Under the pieces are notes generated by a model, which saw only the letters and a program-made list of their open reading frames with translations, made no database searches and was not told the DNA's origin. A program made the translations under genes and the position numbers. Of a DNA stretch of 64,000 nt, positions 1,947-58,736 are shown piece after piece (the first letter of the stretch is position 1; the number at the start of each line of letters is the position of its first letter). Source of the stretch: an uncultured Prevotellaceae bacterium (GTDB lineage Bacteria > Bacteroidota > Bacteroidia > Bacteroidales > Bacteroidaceae). The stretch lies in NCBI GenBank assembly GCA_900316985.1, contig ONFE01000011.1:42117-106116 (forward strand), read 5' to 3'.

Positions 1947-2886
1947 ATAGAATGCACTTCAGATTTTTGGCCAACTGTTCCTTGCTGCTAGCGCCTACAA
2001 GGACTGATGTAGTGCCGCGCTGTTCCAGAATCCATCGCAGCGCCTTCTCGGCCAGCGTCTGTCCGGCCGCCAGTGCCTCAGCATTCCATGCCTTCAGTTG
2101 GGCCAGCAGTTCGGGCGTCAGCATTTCTTCCCGGAGGAATTTGCCTTTGCTCATGCGGCTGTCTTGGGGAATGCCGTTCAGGTAGCGATCGGTGAGCAGT
2201 CCCTGTGCAAGGGGGGAGAAGGAAATGAAGCCAATACCGTTGTCAGCACAATAGTCGAGGATGCCCTGCTCCTGCGGTTCGCGGTTGAGCATGTTCAGCT
2301 TGTCCTGGAAGATGAGCAGGGGCACATCGCGTTCCGAAAGATATTTGTCGGCAATCTTCAGCGCTTCCAGTGGCCAGCGGGAGATACCCACATAGAGTGC
2401 CTTACCTTGACGAACGATGTCCACCAATGCCTGAAGTGTTTCTTCCAGCGGTGTGTTGGGATCATAGCGGTGGCTGTAGAACAAGTCCACGTAGTCAATC
2501 TTCATGCGTTTCAGGCTTTGGTCGATGCTTGCCATCAGATATTTGCGGGAACCCCAGTCGCCGTAGGGCCCGGGCCACATATCATATCCAGCCTTCGATG
2601 AGATGAACAACTCGTCGCGATAAGGGCGGAAGTCATCGTCCATCAGCCGTCCCATCGTTTCCTCGGCGCTGCCGTAAGGAGGACCGTAGTTGTTGGCCAG
2701 GTCAAAATGTACCACTCCGTGGTCGAATGCATAGCGTGCCGTTTCGCGGCAATGCTCATAAACATCGACTCCGCCGAAGTTATGCCAGAAGCCTAAACTC
2801 ACTTCGGGTAGCATCACACCCGAATGTCCGCAACGGCGGTATTTCATCCGCTCGTAGCGCTGTTCGTCAGCAATATATTTCTCCAT
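1945..2886 (-). CDS. Aldo-keto reductase (YghZ / L-glyceraldehyde 3-phosphate reductase-like)
   Basis: 313-residue cytosolic NADPH-dependent oxidoreductase with a TIM-barrel fold. The aldo-keto reductase tetrad is visible: Asp62 and Tyr67 in HFDLANNYGPP, Lys98 in ISSKAGYDM, and His139 in YSHRYDP. The WPGPYGDWGSRKYL segment and the length fit the YghZ/GPR branch (related to the Kv-beta/AKR14 type), which reduces methylglyoxal and L-glyceraldehyde 3-phosphate in E. coli. The C-terminal VGASSKEQL is the usual cofactor-binding helix. It is transcribed alone; a canonical promoter lies in the repeat just upstream. The substrate here is inferred only from the family. Confidence 0.88.
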   Translation of the reverse strand: MEKYIADEQRYERMKYRRCGHSGVMLPEVSLGFWHNFGGVDVYEHCRETARYAFDHGVVHFDLANNYGPPYGSAEETMGRLMDDDFRPYRDELFISSKAGYDMWPGPYGDWGSRKYLMASIDQSLKRMKIDYVDLFYSHRYDPNTPLEETLQALVDIVRQGKALYVGISRWPLEALKIADKYLSERDVPLLIFQDKLNMLNREPQEQGILDYCADNGIGFISFSPLAQGLLTDRYLNGIPQDSRMSKGKFLREEMLTPELLAQLKAWNAEALAAGQTLAEKALRWILEQRGTTSVLVGASSKEQLAKNLKCIL

Positions 2887-2904
2887 TGTTCAGATAGTTT
2901 TCGG

Positions 2905-2936
2905 CAAAGGTACGATTTAGTGAGCACAAATGCAAA
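2905..2936 (-). promoter_or_regulatory. Promoter of the aldo-keto reductase gene, inside a hairpin repeat
   Basis: On the minus strand TTTG (2933-2936), a 20-nt spacer and TACCTTTG (2905-2912) form a Bacteroidota promoter. It lies 19 nt upstream of the start codon and is one arm of the first 72-nt hairpin unit. Confidence 0.7.
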
Positions 2937-3140
2937 TAAAACTTGTTTTAATTTGCTTTGTCGAGCGTAAGTACCTTCTGGAAAGGTACGAATAAGTGAG
3001 AACAATACCAAAAAGAAACTTGTTTATTTTTGTATTGTCGAACGCAAATACCTTCACGGAGGAACGACGTAAAGGTACGATTTAGTGAGCACAAATGCAA
3101 ATAAAACTTGTTTTAATTTGCTTTGTCGAGCGTAAGTATC
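2906..3140. repeat. Three tandem hairpin units of about 72 nt
   Basis: Units at 2906-2977, 2982-3054 and 3071-3140 share the frame AAAGGTACGA...ACTTGTTT...TCGA(G/A)CG...GTA(C/T). Units 1 and 3 are identical over about 68 nt. Each is an imperfect inverted repeat whose outer arms are AAGGTAC and GTACCTT. The inner stem differs between unit 1 (TGCAAAT/ATTTGC) and unit 2 (ACAATAC/GTATTGT), yet pairing is kept. One arm contains a TACCTTTG promoter box. Confidence 0.85.
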
Positions 3141-3149
3141 GTTTTAATA

Positions 3150-3176
3150 GAATCGGAGGGACAGGTTTGAGGTGAT
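3150..3176. repeat. REP-like half site
   Basis: GAGGGACAGGTTTGAGGTGA resembles the arm of the REP-like hairpin at 6566-6643 (GGGGACAGGTTTGAAGTGAA on the minus strand). It is a single arm without its partner. Confidence 0.5.
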
Positions 3177-3191
3177 CCCAAATTCGTCATC

Positions 3192-3628
3192 CTCGTACGC
3201 GCGTGCGCGAGATTTTTCATTTTAAGGGTGCAAGGGTGTCAGAATGCCGATAAACACTGGCTTTGCACCCTCCTGAAGAGGGTGTCAAGGGTGTCATAAG
3301 GGTGTAACGGGAGACCCACCCCAGCCCTCCCTGCATAGGGAGGGAGTTATGTCTTTAGGGTTAGGGTTAAGGTTATCGTTTAAAAATTCTCTAGAGAATT
3401 TTCTCCAAACGATGGTTAAATGAAGTGCAAACACCCTTCGATTGCCACAAATTCTCTAGAGAATTTATTAACGATGACGAAAACGAAGACGAAAGCATAA
3501 TTCTCAACTCTACACTCTACACTAAAAGTATGACACCCTCCTGACACCCTTGACACCCTTCCGAACAGGGTGCAAGCCCAGTGTTTATCGGCATTCTGAC
3601 ACCCTTGCACCCTTAAATCAAAAATTTC
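3192..3628 (+). repeat. Palindromic gene-free element, copy A
   Basis: About 430 bp. A GC-alternating tract (3194-3210) leads into terminal inverted repeats at 3222-3307 and 3530-3615. Their outer 39 nt match exactly, and the inner parts carry direct repeats of AAGGGTGTCA pointing inward. The core holds a CCTCCCT/AGGGAGG hairpin (3326-3344), a TTAGGGTTAGGGTTAAGG stretch, and two copies of a palindrome (AAAATTCTCTAGAGAATTTT at 3383-3402; an 18-nt version at 3449-3466). A second copy in the opposite orientation lies at 58326-58736. No reading frame is supported inside. Confidence 0.85.
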
Positions 3629-3860
3629 CTATGTAAAAAGCATGCTCCCTTATTCTTGTTACCACCAAATATTCTTCATCAAAATGAATCAAAAATTGAT
3701 TCCTTCCCTTGCTTCACATGGCAGATGCCCGTGCCGTTTTTCTCTCGCTTTAATCTCACAGGGGGGCTGTCCCCCTGTGAGCAGTTAAAAATGATTAATG
3801 AGCGGGTGGCTCTGATTTCAAGATTATTGAAAAATGCTATTGTTCTCATGATTTGAAGTG
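3629..3860. other. Gene-free stretch with a short palindrome
   Basis: Completes the 974-nt stretch without genes that starts at 2887. The only structure seen is a hairpin of CTCACAGGGGG and CCCCCTGTGAG at 3756-3782, which recurs in degraded form at 5640-5663. No convincing gene or promoter was found. Confidence 0.5.
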
Positions 3861-4355
3861 TTATCTTTTAATTGTTGGTAATAAAAAATCCAACAGCCAT
3901 CCTTTGAATTCAAGTAAGTTTCTAAACCTGCTTCCATACACATCACTTGTGAAAAACAAATGTTCTGTATGATCCCCTGTCTTTATTTCTACTTTAATCT
4001 TATCCCCAACATATTGATAATATACTTTTGACTTGCCGTATTTTTCAATTTGATATTTTGGCCAGGAAGATAAATTGATCGTATGTTGGAAGTTAGATAT
4101 AAGCATCCCCTCTTCAGTCTCTTTTGTCGTGACAGGTTGCATCTCTCCACCATAAGTAAGGATATATAGGCGCCCATCATGTATTTCAAAACCTTCAATA
4201 GGGAAGATTTGCTCGCTTTGTAGGCTCTTCTTATTTATGATTTGAAGTGCAAACCGCTCCGAAATCCATGCTTTATCACCGTTGCCCGCTAGTATGTTAT
4301 TAGCGTAGTTGGCAAATACTATCATGCAGATAATTAGAAATGTTTTTCTCATCAT
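3861..4355 (-). CDS. Hypothetical secreted protein
   Basis: 164 residues, not assigned to a family. The N-terminus MMRKTFLIICMIVFANYANNILAGNG is a Sec signal peptide with a likely cut after ILA. The mature part is mostly beta-prone with polar strands (FEIHDGRLYILTYG; YYQYVGDKIKVEIKTG) and ends in a hydrophobic helix-like tail. It has no lipobox Cys or recognisable motif. It precedes, with a 67-nt gap, the WG-repeat lipoprotein on the same strand, so the two may be co-transcribed from upstream of the lipoprotein. Local base composition is more AT-rich than the dcw genes, in keeping with an accessory region. Confidence 0.6.
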   Translation of the reverse strand: MMRKTFLIICMIVFANYANNILAGNGDKAWISERFALQIINKKSLQSEQIFPIEGFEIHDGRLYILTYGGEMQPVTTKETEEGMLISNFQHTINLSSWPKYQIEKYGKSKVYYQYVGDKIKVEIKTGDHTEHLFFTSDVYGSRFRNLLEFKGWLLDFLLPTIKR

Positions 4356-4422: not shown

Positions 4423-5568
4423 CTAGATAAACGGGAATAACAAATGTTTTATGAAAAGGAAGGGCAAAACTAACAAAGACTCAATGCCGGTCAGACATTT
4501 GCCATTCGGGCCATCAACCCGTTGCCCGTTCTTGTCGATATAGAACCACTCATCGCTTTCCCATTCGCTATGCTCATCCATACTGTTCTTCTTTCCATGA
4601 TAAGCCACACGCGCACGACCACCCTCAAACGGATATGCACACTGGAACTGAGGTTTAATGACTACATTGCCCAAGGTGTCGGCATAGCCTATCTTCCCAT
4701 CATCGTCTAAGATTCGGTAGAGTCCCTCATGGACATCATCCGCCTGGAAATTGTCTATCATCATTACCTCGAACAACTTTTCCCCCTTATTGTTAATCAT
4801 AACGATTCCGACATGAGGTTCCGCCACGATGCCAATAGGGGCTATCGAGTCGAATCCGCAATACTCATATTTGCCGTAGGGTACAATGGTGTCGCCCTGT
4901 TCGTTCAGATAGCATACAGGATTGAGAAATTCTGATCCTTTAGCAGCAAACAATTTCTTACCTTTCCATCCTCGGGATCTTCCTGCCTCGATAAAGCCGC
5001 AGGGCTCTGGGTTCTGAATAACACTTATTGTGGACAATATCTTGATACGGCACAGCGTATCTTTGTCGAAATAAAAGTATGTCTTGCCGTAAGTGGGATA
5101 AAAGCCTACAATCAACACGTGGAAATTGGGAACTTCTTCCTTCATGTGCAGTTTGCTCAGAACACTGTCCCTTGTTTCACCCACATGAATTCCCGACTTC
5201 AAGACAATTCGGGGATCTGTAATATTCGCATAAATGACAGTATGGATTGGGTCATCTTCTGTTAATTCCTGAAGAATGATCTGATTATCTTGACTGCTAA
5301 ATGTATAATAGTTCTGAATACATTGATAATCAGATGTCTTATTCTCTTTAAGGAAAGAAAAATCTTTCCTGTAATCAGCAAAGGGCTTCTGGAATCCAAA
5401 AGGATATGGTGCCATGCAGTCACCATTCACGGGTTCAATCGTCAGCGTGTCGTTGCTGTAGATAAAGGTATTAACGTGATCCCCTTTTTCTTCGCTGGCT
5501 GTTTCCTGGCGACCAACACAACTGATTGTCAATAAGGCCGCAAATATGAAGATTATTGCTTTGTTCAT
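4423..5568 (-). CDS. WG-repeat lipoprotein
   Basis: About 381 residues from the chosen start MNKAIIFIF; an in-frame ATG three codons earlier is possible. The signal peptide ends in the lipobox LTISC, so the mature protein should be lipid-anchored. The C-terminal half carries WG/KWG-type beta repeats, for example GLYRILDDDGKIGYADTLG followed by NVVIKPQFQCAYPFEGGRAR, and the pattern FYIDKNGQRV. WG repeats are found in many Bacteroidota surface or periplasmic proteins and have no single known role. The N-terminal half (YTFSSQDNQIILQELTED and a strand-rich block with KTYFYFDKDTLCRI) is unassigned. The ending LLFPFI is unusually hydrophobic. Confidence 0.7.
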   Translation of the reverse strand: MNKAIIFIFAALLTISCVGRQETASEEKGDHVNTFIYSNDTLTIEPVNGDCMAPYPFGFQKPFADYRKDFSFLKENKTSDYQCIQNYYTFSSQDNQIILQELTEDDPIHTVIYANITDPRIVLKSGIHVGETRDSVLSKLHMKEEVPNFHVLIVGFYPTYGKTYFYFDKDTLCRIKILSTISVIQNPEPCGFIEAGRSRGWKGKKLFAAKGSEFLNPVCYLNEQGDTIVPYGKYEYCGFDSIAPIGIVAEPHVGIVMINNKGEKLFEVMMIDNFQADDVHEGLYRILDDDGKIGYADTLGNVVIKPQFQCAYPFEGGRARVAYHGKKNSMDEHSEWESDEWFYIDKNGQRVDGPNGKCLTGIESLLVLPFLFIKHLLFPFI

Positions 5569-38940: not shown

Positions 38941-38959
38941 GCAGAAAGGATTATAAATC

Positions 38960-39208
38960 ATGAAACTGATATATTTGCAACCAGAAACAGAGGTGTTCTC
39001 TTCTTATAGCGAAGGCTCACTGATGGCAGCTACTGTAGAGTCTGACCGTAATGTCAGCGGTGCTGATGGCACTCTGCCAGGAGCTGTAGGCGAGACCGAT
39101 GAGAATAATAACGGTTATGGTCATGGTGTAGGTGATCCGAGTGATCCTGTTGGCGGTGGTAACCGCTCGAAGAGCAGCATTTGGGACGACTGGGATGATG
39201 AAGAATAA
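38960..39208 (+). CDS. Small acidic protein paired with the large secreted protein
   Basis: 82 residues with no signal peptide: MKLIYLQPETEVFSSYSEGS, a Met-Ala-Ala stretch, a Gly/Asn/Asp-rich low-complexity middle and an acidic end (SSIWDDWDDEE). Short Bacteroidota proteins starting MK-x-x-Y-x-x-P-E, with a Gly-rich middle and a Trp/Asp tail, are often seen near surface-protein genes; I know of no function for them. It is 19 nt downstream of the large secreted gene and is followed by a terminator, so both form one unit. Confidence 0.65.
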   Translation: MKLIYLQPETEVFSSYSEGSLMAATVESDRNVSGADGTLPGAVGETDENNNGYGHGVGDPSDPVGGGNRSKSSIWDDWDDEE

Positions 39209-39244
39209 TACTCGTAATTATTATAAATCATTCGATTCAAAAGA

Positions 39245-39276
39245 GGAGTTCACTGGAAGTGGTGGACTCCTTTTTT
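39245..39276 (+). terminator. Terminator after the secreted-protein operon
   Basis: AGGAGTTCAC and the complementary GTGG(T)GGACTCCT form a stem, followed by TTTTTT. Confidence 0.8.
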
Positions 39277-39397
39277 AGCAAAAACACTGACACCACCGTA
39301 CACCCCCGATAAACAAAGGGCTGTAGCGTGACATAAGGTATGTCACCACTGACGCACCACTGAGACATTTCCGGGTGATGGGTGGTGGTAAAATCTA

Positions 39398-40036
39398 TAG
39401 CCTATCTTATTCACACAAGAAAAAGTTTTCCCGTTTTTGCTATCACTGCTATCATTAAAATCGGCAATTGGCTGGTTTTCAATAAATTGCTGAGAAATTT
39501 TTAGTGATAGCACAGGTGATAGCAGTGATAGCAAAACGCCGATTGACTCGTCCTGAATAAGGTTGATGGTTAATCCTGATTTTTTATGATAAAAAGCCCG
39601 TTTTTTGAGATTATTCACGCAGCGTGCATGGAATCTGCAGAGTGAATAATATCTCTGCGAACTCTTATGACTCGGCGTGAGTTTTCTTAGGAATGGGATG
39701 ATGGCTGATGATGCGTTAAATTACTGCGAAGGCTCCGCAGTAGTACTGCGGATGATGCGCAGCAGTACTGCGGATGGGTTGCAGGAGTATTGCAACTGGT
39801 TCGCACTTTTGCGTGAAACAACAGCGTGTTTTGCGAGAGATAAAAGCGCGTATGCGAAAAACTGAGTGTTTAGGGGCGATTTTTCAGTCAAAGGCCTTTT
39901 TGCTATCACTGCTATCACCTGTGCTATCACTAAATTCAGCGTTGCAACTCACAGACATTCAGCTGGTTACTGATTTTAGTGATAGCAGTGATAGCAAAAA
40001 CATGAAAACTTTTTCTTATGTGAATGATATAGGCTA
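39398..40036. repeat. Nested inverted-repeat element without genes (second family)
   Basis: About 640 bp. Outer arms 39398-39454 and 39980-40036 match at 52 of 57 positions when inverted. Inner arms at 39499-39542 and 39891-39936 match almost perfectly and carry direct repeats of GTGATAGCA, spaced like iterons. The centre holds a stem GAGATTATTCAC / GTGAATAATATCTC (39607-39655), repeats of AGTACTGCGGATG (39742-39776), and GTTGCA/TGCAAC (39779-39796). Small frames in the region do not look like genes. Confidence 0.85.
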
Positions 40037-40322
40037 AAGAATATAGAGCCCCTCCCTAACCCTCCCCCGTAGGGAGGGAATCCTATGAGGATAAAGGCTA
40101 TGGTTATCGTTGAACATTTTTGTGAGATTTTTGTTTAAAGAAGTGTGTCAGTGTTTTAACGCATAAAATTAGTTTTCAATGGGTGGAATAAGGCTTCTGA
40201 TGGGAGGGAGCAGAGCCTGTTTCGAGGCGAAAGTGTAGCCAAAACGGCTACACTTTTTGTCGGTGCTGAGTCTTTGGGGAAGGTGGGCGACGGCTGGATG
40301 TAATGGTTTTTTTCGGCAAAAA
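40037..40322. other. Gene-free region with a fragment of the first element family and a stem-loop
   Basis: 40049-40112 (CCCCTCCCTAACCCTCCCCC... TATGGTTATCGTT) resembles the core of the element at 3192-3628. At 40231-40255 AAGTGTAGCC and GGCTACACTT form a perfect 10-bp stem followed by TTT, a terminator-like hairpin on the plus strand. Confidence 0.6.
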
Positions 40323-58325: not shown

Positions 58326-58736
58326 CAGAATGCCGATAAACACAGGGCTTGCACCCTGTTTCAGAGGGTGTCAAGGGTGTCATAAGGGTGCAATACCCAC
58401 CCCTGCCCCTCCCAAAGGGAGGGAGTAGAGACGTTGAATTAGAGACCGACGATAAATTCTCTAGAGAATTTGTTGCTATCAAAGGAAGTTTGCGTTTCAT
58501 ACTGCCATCGTTTGAAGAAAATTTTCTAGAGAATTTCTAAATGATAACGATAACCTTAACCCTAACTCTAAAGACATAACTCCCTTCCTATGCAGGGAGG
58601 GCAGGGGTGGGTCTCCCATTACACCCTTGTGACACCCCTGACACCCTTCCAAGGAGGGTGCAAGCCCTGTGTTTATCGGCATTCTGACACCCTTACACCC
58701 TTAAACAAAAATTTTCGCGCGTACGCGCGCGCGAAG
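58326..58736 (-). repeat. Palindromic gene-free element, copy B
   Basis: Inverted relative to copy A (3192-3628). The right arm (58619-58704) repeats the full terminal sequence of A, and a GC-alternating tract follows (58715-58734). The left arm (58326-58392) lacks the outermost 17 or so nt. The core is also shared: AGGGAGG/CCTCCCT hairpin, TAACCTTAACCCTAAC stretch (58551-58566), two AATTCTCTAGAGAATT-type palindromes (58455-58471 and 58520-58537; the second has one change). It lies between the outer-membrane gene and the third TlpA-like gene. Confidence 0.87.

Follow-up and report, generated by a model that had tools for sequence, protein, structure and literature searches.

Dispersed iteron-bearing elements of Prevotella are probably tied to VapE/BT4734-type initiator helicases

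The window, a stretch of 64,000 nucleotides from the genome of an uncultured Prevotellaceae bacterium, carries at 3192-3628 an element, here called element A, that is genuine, repeated and gene-free (Table 1). A first-pass annotation of this DNA had described inverted arms with direct repeats, a CG tract, two palindromes and a CCTCCCT hairpin, and all of these are present, the arms measuring 92 nt and the palindromes 18 nt. The two arms are 86% complementary, with 227 nt between them, and AAGGGTG(TC)A repeats occur in both. The CG tract is followed by T-rich DNA and, among the loci whose ends were compared, is a one-sided variant, the other element ends being TATATAGGAAATTTTT-like. The same annotation placed a copy with the full layout, in opposite orientation, 55 kb away; the orientation of this copy B is as described, but the layout is incomplete, its left arm being shortened by about 23 nt at the outer end. 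An Rfam scan of 2800-4000 returned four matches, none at its gathering score (MIR5638, for example, scored 70.2 against 500), and a known RNA family was rejected as the identity of element A on this ground.

Table 1. Features of element A, of copy B and of a second-family element, in window coordinates
Feature	Position	Strand	Remarks
CG-alternating self-complementary tract CTCGTACGCGCGTGCGCGAG	3192-3211	.	left end of element A; read from sequence
Left inverted arm of element A	3214-3305	+	92 nt; repeat computation and arm comparison
Left arm, direct iterons (two)	about 3224-3241		read from sequence
Left arm, CCGATAAACAC box	about 3247-3257		read from sequence
Left arm, inverted iteron (one)	about 3263-3271		read from sequence
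Left arm, direct iterons (three)	about 3279-3305		read from sequence
CCCTCCCTGCATAGGGAGGG (CCTCCCT) hairpin in core of element A	about 3325-3344	.	read from sequence
Perfect 18-nt palindrome AAATTCTCTAGAGAATTT, copy 1	3384-3401	.	repeat computation
Perfect 18-nt palindrome AAATTCTCTAGAGAATTT, copy 2	3449-3466	.	identical to copy 1
Right inverted arm of element A	3533-3624	-	92 nt; iteron order from outside inwards as in left arm
Gene-free second-family element (AGTGATAGC iterons)	39394-40040	.	arms 39394-39548 and 39886-40040
Copy B	58326-58729	-	opposite orientation to element A
Copy B, left arm	58326-58393		outer ~23 nt and outer iterons absent
Copy B, right arm	about 58616-58729		complete; CG tract outside arm

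Other repeats lie close by. A dispersed repeat of ~68 nt with a palindromic centre, AAAGGTACGATTTAGTGAGC...GAGCGTAAGTA, is found at 2906-2973 and 3071-3138, with a diverged copy at about 2982-3050, and has many matches in the related genomes G040-G043. A CACAGGGGGGCTGTCCCCCTGTGAGC hairpin stretch at about 3696-3785 likewise recurs in related genomes.

Element A is not a chance occurrence, since 109 pieces matching it are present in its own genome (3.73 Mb in 166 contigs), some of them consisting of the CCTCCCT hairpin alone; the hairpin is also found apart from arms at L048-L050. Arms could be resolved at 19 loci in the window and 20 regions fetched from the same genome, 18 of them two-armed and one (L042) one-armed, and the arms of one element resemble each other slightly more than randomly paired arms do (0.874 vs 0.847; 2 of 5000 permutations). 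Within a set of 40 genomes of relatives the arm sequence was confined to the own genome, and a pattern scan of public genomes located it in five rumen-type Prevotellaceae assemblies (RUG030, RGIG5985, UBA3294, RUG12994 and Reindeer_1_mag_250), 11 stretches in all. The corresponding scan of viral contigs was empty. Plasmid records gave no DNA match to element A, and a plasmid origin was rejected on this ground.

Three of the elements in the own genome have long interiors. The arms of L038 enclose a BspA-type LRR protein (LRR_5; L038 2040-5524), and those of L045 enclose DuOB and DUF488 genes (L045 1641-3772), which in PADLOC match PDC-M45A and PDC-M45B, respectively, both of them candidate defence families. 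At L040, the arms of element A recur on either side of a gene for an AAA+ helicase of the VapE/BT4734 type, the only gene of the arm-bounded unit. The long relatives that were found enclose only helicase, LRR protein or DUF488 and DuOB genes, and no transposase or recombinase gene was seen in these three interiors. The first-pass annotation had proposed a search for a longer, gene-bearing element with matching ends, and L040 is such an element. Of the genes it considered, a primase-polymerase, together with its notion of a satellite of a replicating island, comes close to the L040 helicase, whereas a transposase or recombinase does not. Its description of element A as MITE-like and in need of help in trans holds in so far as the element is repeated, gene-free and probably non-autonomous, but finds no transposase or recombinase in L038, L040 or L045 to lean on. 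At a further locus (L090 223-1691), element arms surround an LRR protein with internalin-like repeats that score below NCBIfam cut-offs.

The L040 protein (694 aa) has Pfam matches to VapE-like_dom (6.3e-31), BT4734-like_N (5.4e-11) and DUF5906, and none to a HuH family. Its sole sequence match with a solved structure (E 3.6e-5) is to 7pds, 'Similar to D. nodosus vapE', which we take to be a SaPI protein. The L040 protein has ten more matching places in the own genome, and several of the helicase genes there, those of L093, L095, L096, L097 and L098, likewise lie between inverted arms, the iteron being different at each. Just upstream of the L040 gene are the same palindrome pair and hairpin as in element A, so that element A looks like L040 minus its gene. 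We read element A as a putative non-autonomous satellite of a SaPI-Rep-like initiator helicase, encoded at L040.

The association of arms with helicase genes extends beyond one locus. PF08800 is present in 14 of 24 genomes of the genus, and a first survey covered 49 loci, comprising 47 of 63 PF08800 matches and two helicase-only genes; four loci with short flanks (L144, L161, L166 and L170) were left out. Wide-window arm scores were compared with those of 452 mismatched arm pairs, for which the 99th percentile was 36 and the maximum 60. Ten loci scored above 36, including L040 (92), L093 (103), L095 (101), L097 (88) and L098 (151). L167, which is AT-rich, scored 55, near the control maximum, and L096, L142, L143 and L149 (42-51) were accepted yet lie below the highest mismatched pair.

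Searched with the L040 protein at E <= 1e-60, the order-wide set gave hits in 2 of 149 genomes; at E <= 1e-90, the genus set gave hits in 63 of 299. We examined 40 of the 83 genes listed from other genomes, including all 21 with at least 54% identity; these 21, at 54-62% identity, and two own genes are referred to as the close clade. Here the mismatched-pair control is unsuitable because the arms are homologous to one another (its 99th percentile rises to 142, with 10 of 39 loci above and L240 left out), and 50 dinucleotide shuffles per locus were used instead, with DxD genes as background. Inverted, iteron-bearing arms scoring above all 50 shuffles were present at 21 of the 22 testable close-clade loci, and the exception, L221, has kept a single arm, upstream. 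In the armed loci other than the truncated L260, the downstream arm starts between -31 and +19 nt from the stop codon. At 18 of 23 close-clade loci an HU-HIG gene lies 35-142 nt beyond the helicase gene, and the downstream arm, where there is one, is located between the two; at 4 of 23 no HU-HIG match was found. Apart from HU-HIG, 20 of 22 loci have no upstream neighbour in common with another locus, indicating that the position of gene and arms varies between genomes. Carriage of the close clade by phages was considered and rejected: a pattern scan of viral contigs yielded no close-clade helicase relative, and the relatives of the L040 protein in phage (232) and plasmid (33) records are all below 60% identity.

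Sorting 89 genes by primase motif I revealed two layouts, with counts taken over testable loci only. Of the genes with DxD, the background, 1 of 19 is bracketed by arms and 3 of 19 have a pair upstream. A second helicase group, with ExN, has no bracketed gene (0/18), and 14 of 17 of its genes have a gene-free inverted pair just upstream. The remaining genes (group C) are bracketed in 28 of 41 cases and have an upstream pair in 3 of 41; the 13 testable genes of this group without bracketing arms at threshold include L221 and L244-L249 (scores 28-35). Among five genes without a usable motif I, one of four testable was bracketed. On inspection of the four DxD positives, L167 proved AT-rich, and L152, L153 and L158 had inverted repeats of other make-up. 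DxD, named as motif I of primases (PMC5862659), is absent from the bracketed proteins with an aligned N domain and present in 22 other PF08800 proteins. Because this motif is lost, the N-terminal primase-like domain of the bracketed helicases is probably no working primase; Walker A, Walker B and sensor/arginine motifs are kept despite the loss. The arrangement is not confined to Prevotella, since a BT4734/BF3469 gene of Bacteroides finegoldii (L337, NZ_OY725909.1) is bracketed by CTGACAATA iteron arms at 1945-2004 and 4427-4486.

Arm layout is constant, with direct iteron(s), a spacer, an inverted iteron and direct iterons, and the iteron sequence differs from gene to gene. Close-clade examples are GGGTGACA, GGTTGTCA, GACTGACA and CGCTGACAC, and the iterons of the ExN group are quite different words. 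At 20 close-clade loci we compared upstream-arm distance with windowed protein distance, holding the rest of the protein constant. Residues 655-694 gave a partial r of 0.55 and residues 641-680 one of 0.37 (each 0 of 500 permutations); a window in the AAA+ core, 481-520, gave 0.51 (1 of 500), so the C-terminus is not the sole signal. By domain, the partial r was 0.41 for C (0/1000), 0.27 for AAA+ (19/1000) and -0.43 for N (1000/1000). Simple linkage does not explain this covariation, since the arm used is the upstream one, some 2 kb from the C-terminal codons. Individual pairs are also informative. The proteins of L225 and L228 are 88%, 97% and 49% identical in their N, AAA+ and C domains and have different iterons, whereas those of L225 and L223 (73%, 90% and 83%) have iterons in common. 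The former pair looks like a natural exchange of the C-terminus and would agree with C-terminal recognition of the iterons.

Gene-free copies are dispersed. Further matches to one arm type were found in 15 of 18 close-clade genomes, reaching at least 40 in G187 (40 of 51 candidates scored) and 19 in G349; G250, G261 and G383 gave none with this query, which covers a single arm type and may miss other iteron types. Many of the G187 arms are 92-95% similar, and the partner arms of many copies there are degraded or missing. Two sites of G304 whose flanks are unrelated carry copies of a 526-nt unit that are 99.8% identical. Together, the G304 pair and the similar G187 arms point to recent copying within a genome.

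Two further element families are present in the own genome besides that of element A. One is represented in the window by the element at 39394-40040, which sits in a stretch (38941-40155) free of ORFs of at least 100 aa and is related to the arms carried by the L096 helicase gene. This AGTGATAGC family has 14 arms of at least about 100 nt in the own genome; G040 has 20 of at least about 95 nt, and G041 has none. Two more copies of the L094 element, about 70% identical, occur in the own genome. In G040, the orthologue of window gene 3861-4355 has a single AGTGATAGC-family arm (L101) next to it, at the place that element A occupies in the window.

Empty sites were sought by comparing the flanks of 16 own-genome elements in three related genomes (20 regions). 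At L032, L035, L039, L040, L041, L045 and L047 the element or part of it was at the matching place in G040 or G041, and at the sites of L037 in G043 and of L043 in G040 there were short remnants with the two ends fused. The latter remnant lies beside a DUF488 gene (L210) whose product is identical to the L045 cargo at 94 of 118 residues. L031, L036, L041 (in G043), L044 and L046 had one flank alone in common with the related genome. No clean empty site was found among these flanks, nor did L276 (G204) against G449 give a clean filled/empty case, and the two G304 copies showed no target duplication; empty sites and target duplications, both raised as checks in the first-pass annotation, have therefore not been recovered. 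Its statement that the element is or was mobile fares better. Copies exist elsewhere; some occupy orthologous positions in related genomes, but many lie at sites unrelated to one another, which makes past mobility of the family likely.

We consider it probable, from the arms in common with L040 and the survey, that element A is a gene-free member of an origin-like iteron family tied to a VapE/BT4734-type initiator helicase. Under this proposal each element family would belong to one such AAA+ helicase, encoded between the two arms or right beside a gene-free arm pair. The C-terminus of the helicase would bind the iterons of each arm, and helicase rings may then load at the arms and open up the core with its palindromes, in the manner of SaPI Rep at its own origin. 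Local over-replication of the arm-bounded DNA could yield copies, and host recombination could re-insert them; these are the weakest steps of the scheme. Elements without a gene would spread in trans and might carry cargo, such as an LRR protein or a candidate phage-defence pair. The data suggest a dispersed DNA that depends on a replication starter and not on a transposase. We advance more tentatively, as a possibility short of even, the wider idea of a class of chromosomal mobile DNA that spreads by replication initiation, in which a dead-primase AAA+ helicase would recognise iteron arms, copy arm-bounded DNA whether or not this includes the helicase gene, and keep several coexisting satellite and cargo populations per genome, each with its own helicase specificity.

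Other readings deserve consideration. The dispersed inverted doublets, single arms and near-identical copies resemble REPINs or MITEs (PMC3116915), and the arms might be substrates of a transposase encoded elsewhere, the helicase gene being a captured passenger. A passenger role leaves unexplained the bracketing of 21 of 22 clade genes, the upstream pairs of the second helicase group (14/17) and the covariation of the arms with the helicase C-terminus; moreover, no transposase gene was seen in the long elements inspected and no target duplication at the G304 copies. We regard this reading as unlikely, and on the latter two observations a plain transposase MITE was set aside.

It could also be argued that the helicase, or a neighbour such as HU-HIG, binds the arms to control transcription, and that the dispersed copies are regulatory or terminator-like and not replicative. 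Arms that directly precede the gene and overlie its stop codon, the closeness of HU-HIG genes downstream (35-142 nt, at 18 of the 23 close-clade loci), and a CG hairpin followed by T residues at one end of element A would all fit. HU-HIG is, however, missing near some armed genes (4 of 23 loci without a match), and neither dozens of near-identical copies at unrelated sites nor copies enclosing other genes are expected of plain operators, so that we hold control of transcription to be less probable still than a captured passenger. Slightly further down we would rank the idea that the arm pairs are former origins of integrated plasmids or phage satellites, the rest of which was lost and which are inactive today. 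The helicase relatives in 33 plasmid and 232 phage records are in keeping with such a history, as are the fused-end remnants and degraded partner arms; even so, those relatives are below 60% identity, no plasmid record matches the element itself, and the 99.8% identical G304 pair and many 92-95% similar G187 arms speak for recent copying within a genome. Among the readings discussed, decayed origins are the least probable.

If the initiator-helicase proposal is correct, a large Bacteroidales protein group named only 'BT4734/BF3469 family' in the plasmid records inspected gains a partner and a likely job, and intergenic Prevotella repeats that had been unexplained would be tied to these proteins. 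An iteron code in which arms change with the helicase C-terminus makes sequence-specific origin recognition directly testable. Dispersal driven by an initiator, independent of transposase or integrase, would be a mode of genome colonisation able to carry candidate phage-defence genes; we know of no description of such a mode in the literature.

Several known systems invite comparison. The BrickBuilt MITE of Porphyromonas gingivalis (PMC4596501), also from the Bacteroidales, is gene-free and intergenic, has terminal inverted repeats and reaches tens of copies. Its ends are 12 nt long, like those of IS5-family elements, and target duplications were proposed for it; in contrast, the Prevotella ends are long iteron arms of the kind that a helicase gene also has, and no target duplication was seen. 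REPIN/RAYT systems (Bertels and Rainey 2011, PMC3116915) combine short intergenic inverted doublets with one associated gene per repeat class, and dispersed inverted doublets bracketing one associated gene are found here as well. That gene, however, encodes an AAA+ helicase and not a Y1 (HuH) transposase, and the arms are iteron arrays of 80-155 nt, unlike the 20-40 nt palindromes of REPINs (PMC3116915).

The protein itself has the architecture of BT4734-like AEP primases, in which a PF08800 N-terminal domain is fused to a VapE-type helicase, PF05272, and which have been classed among mobile-element primases (Kazlauskas et al. 2018, PMC5862659). The arm-linked genes described here lack the DxD catalytic motif. 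Flanking arms are not mentioned in the excerpts of PMC5862659 used here, and searches of open-licence literature, which lacks most subscription papers, listed no paper in which BT4734/VapE genes are connected with arms at their flanks or with repeats dispersed in the genome.

The closest parallels are the SaPI Rep-ori and SCCmec Cch2 systems (PMC7581432). There, a single origin lies downstream of the gene, within an island or cassette. The Prevotella iterons instead make up inverted arms, placed either on both sides of the gene or as a gene-free pair upstream of it, and gene-free copies are spread over the chromosome. The arm-bounded units examined also differ from SaPI and SCCmec in that they lack integrase and packaging genes: where a SaPI or PICI has integrase, regulator and packaging genes, L040 has the helicase only, L038 and L045 have other cargo and the window elements are gene-free. 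The common ground lies in the initiator and its site. In both cases a D5/VapE-type helicase, a self-loading initiator in SaPI and SCCmec (PMC7581432) and putatively so in Prevotella, is encoded beside an iteron-bearing site, and in Prevotella the VapE-type AAA+ protein has intact Walker A and B motifs and a gene-specific iteron array next to its gene. The C-terminal domain of SaPI Rep recognises the iterons, and Cch2 binds its putative origin likewise (PMC7581432); in the Prevotella helicases it is the C-terminus, too, that tracks the sequence of the arms.
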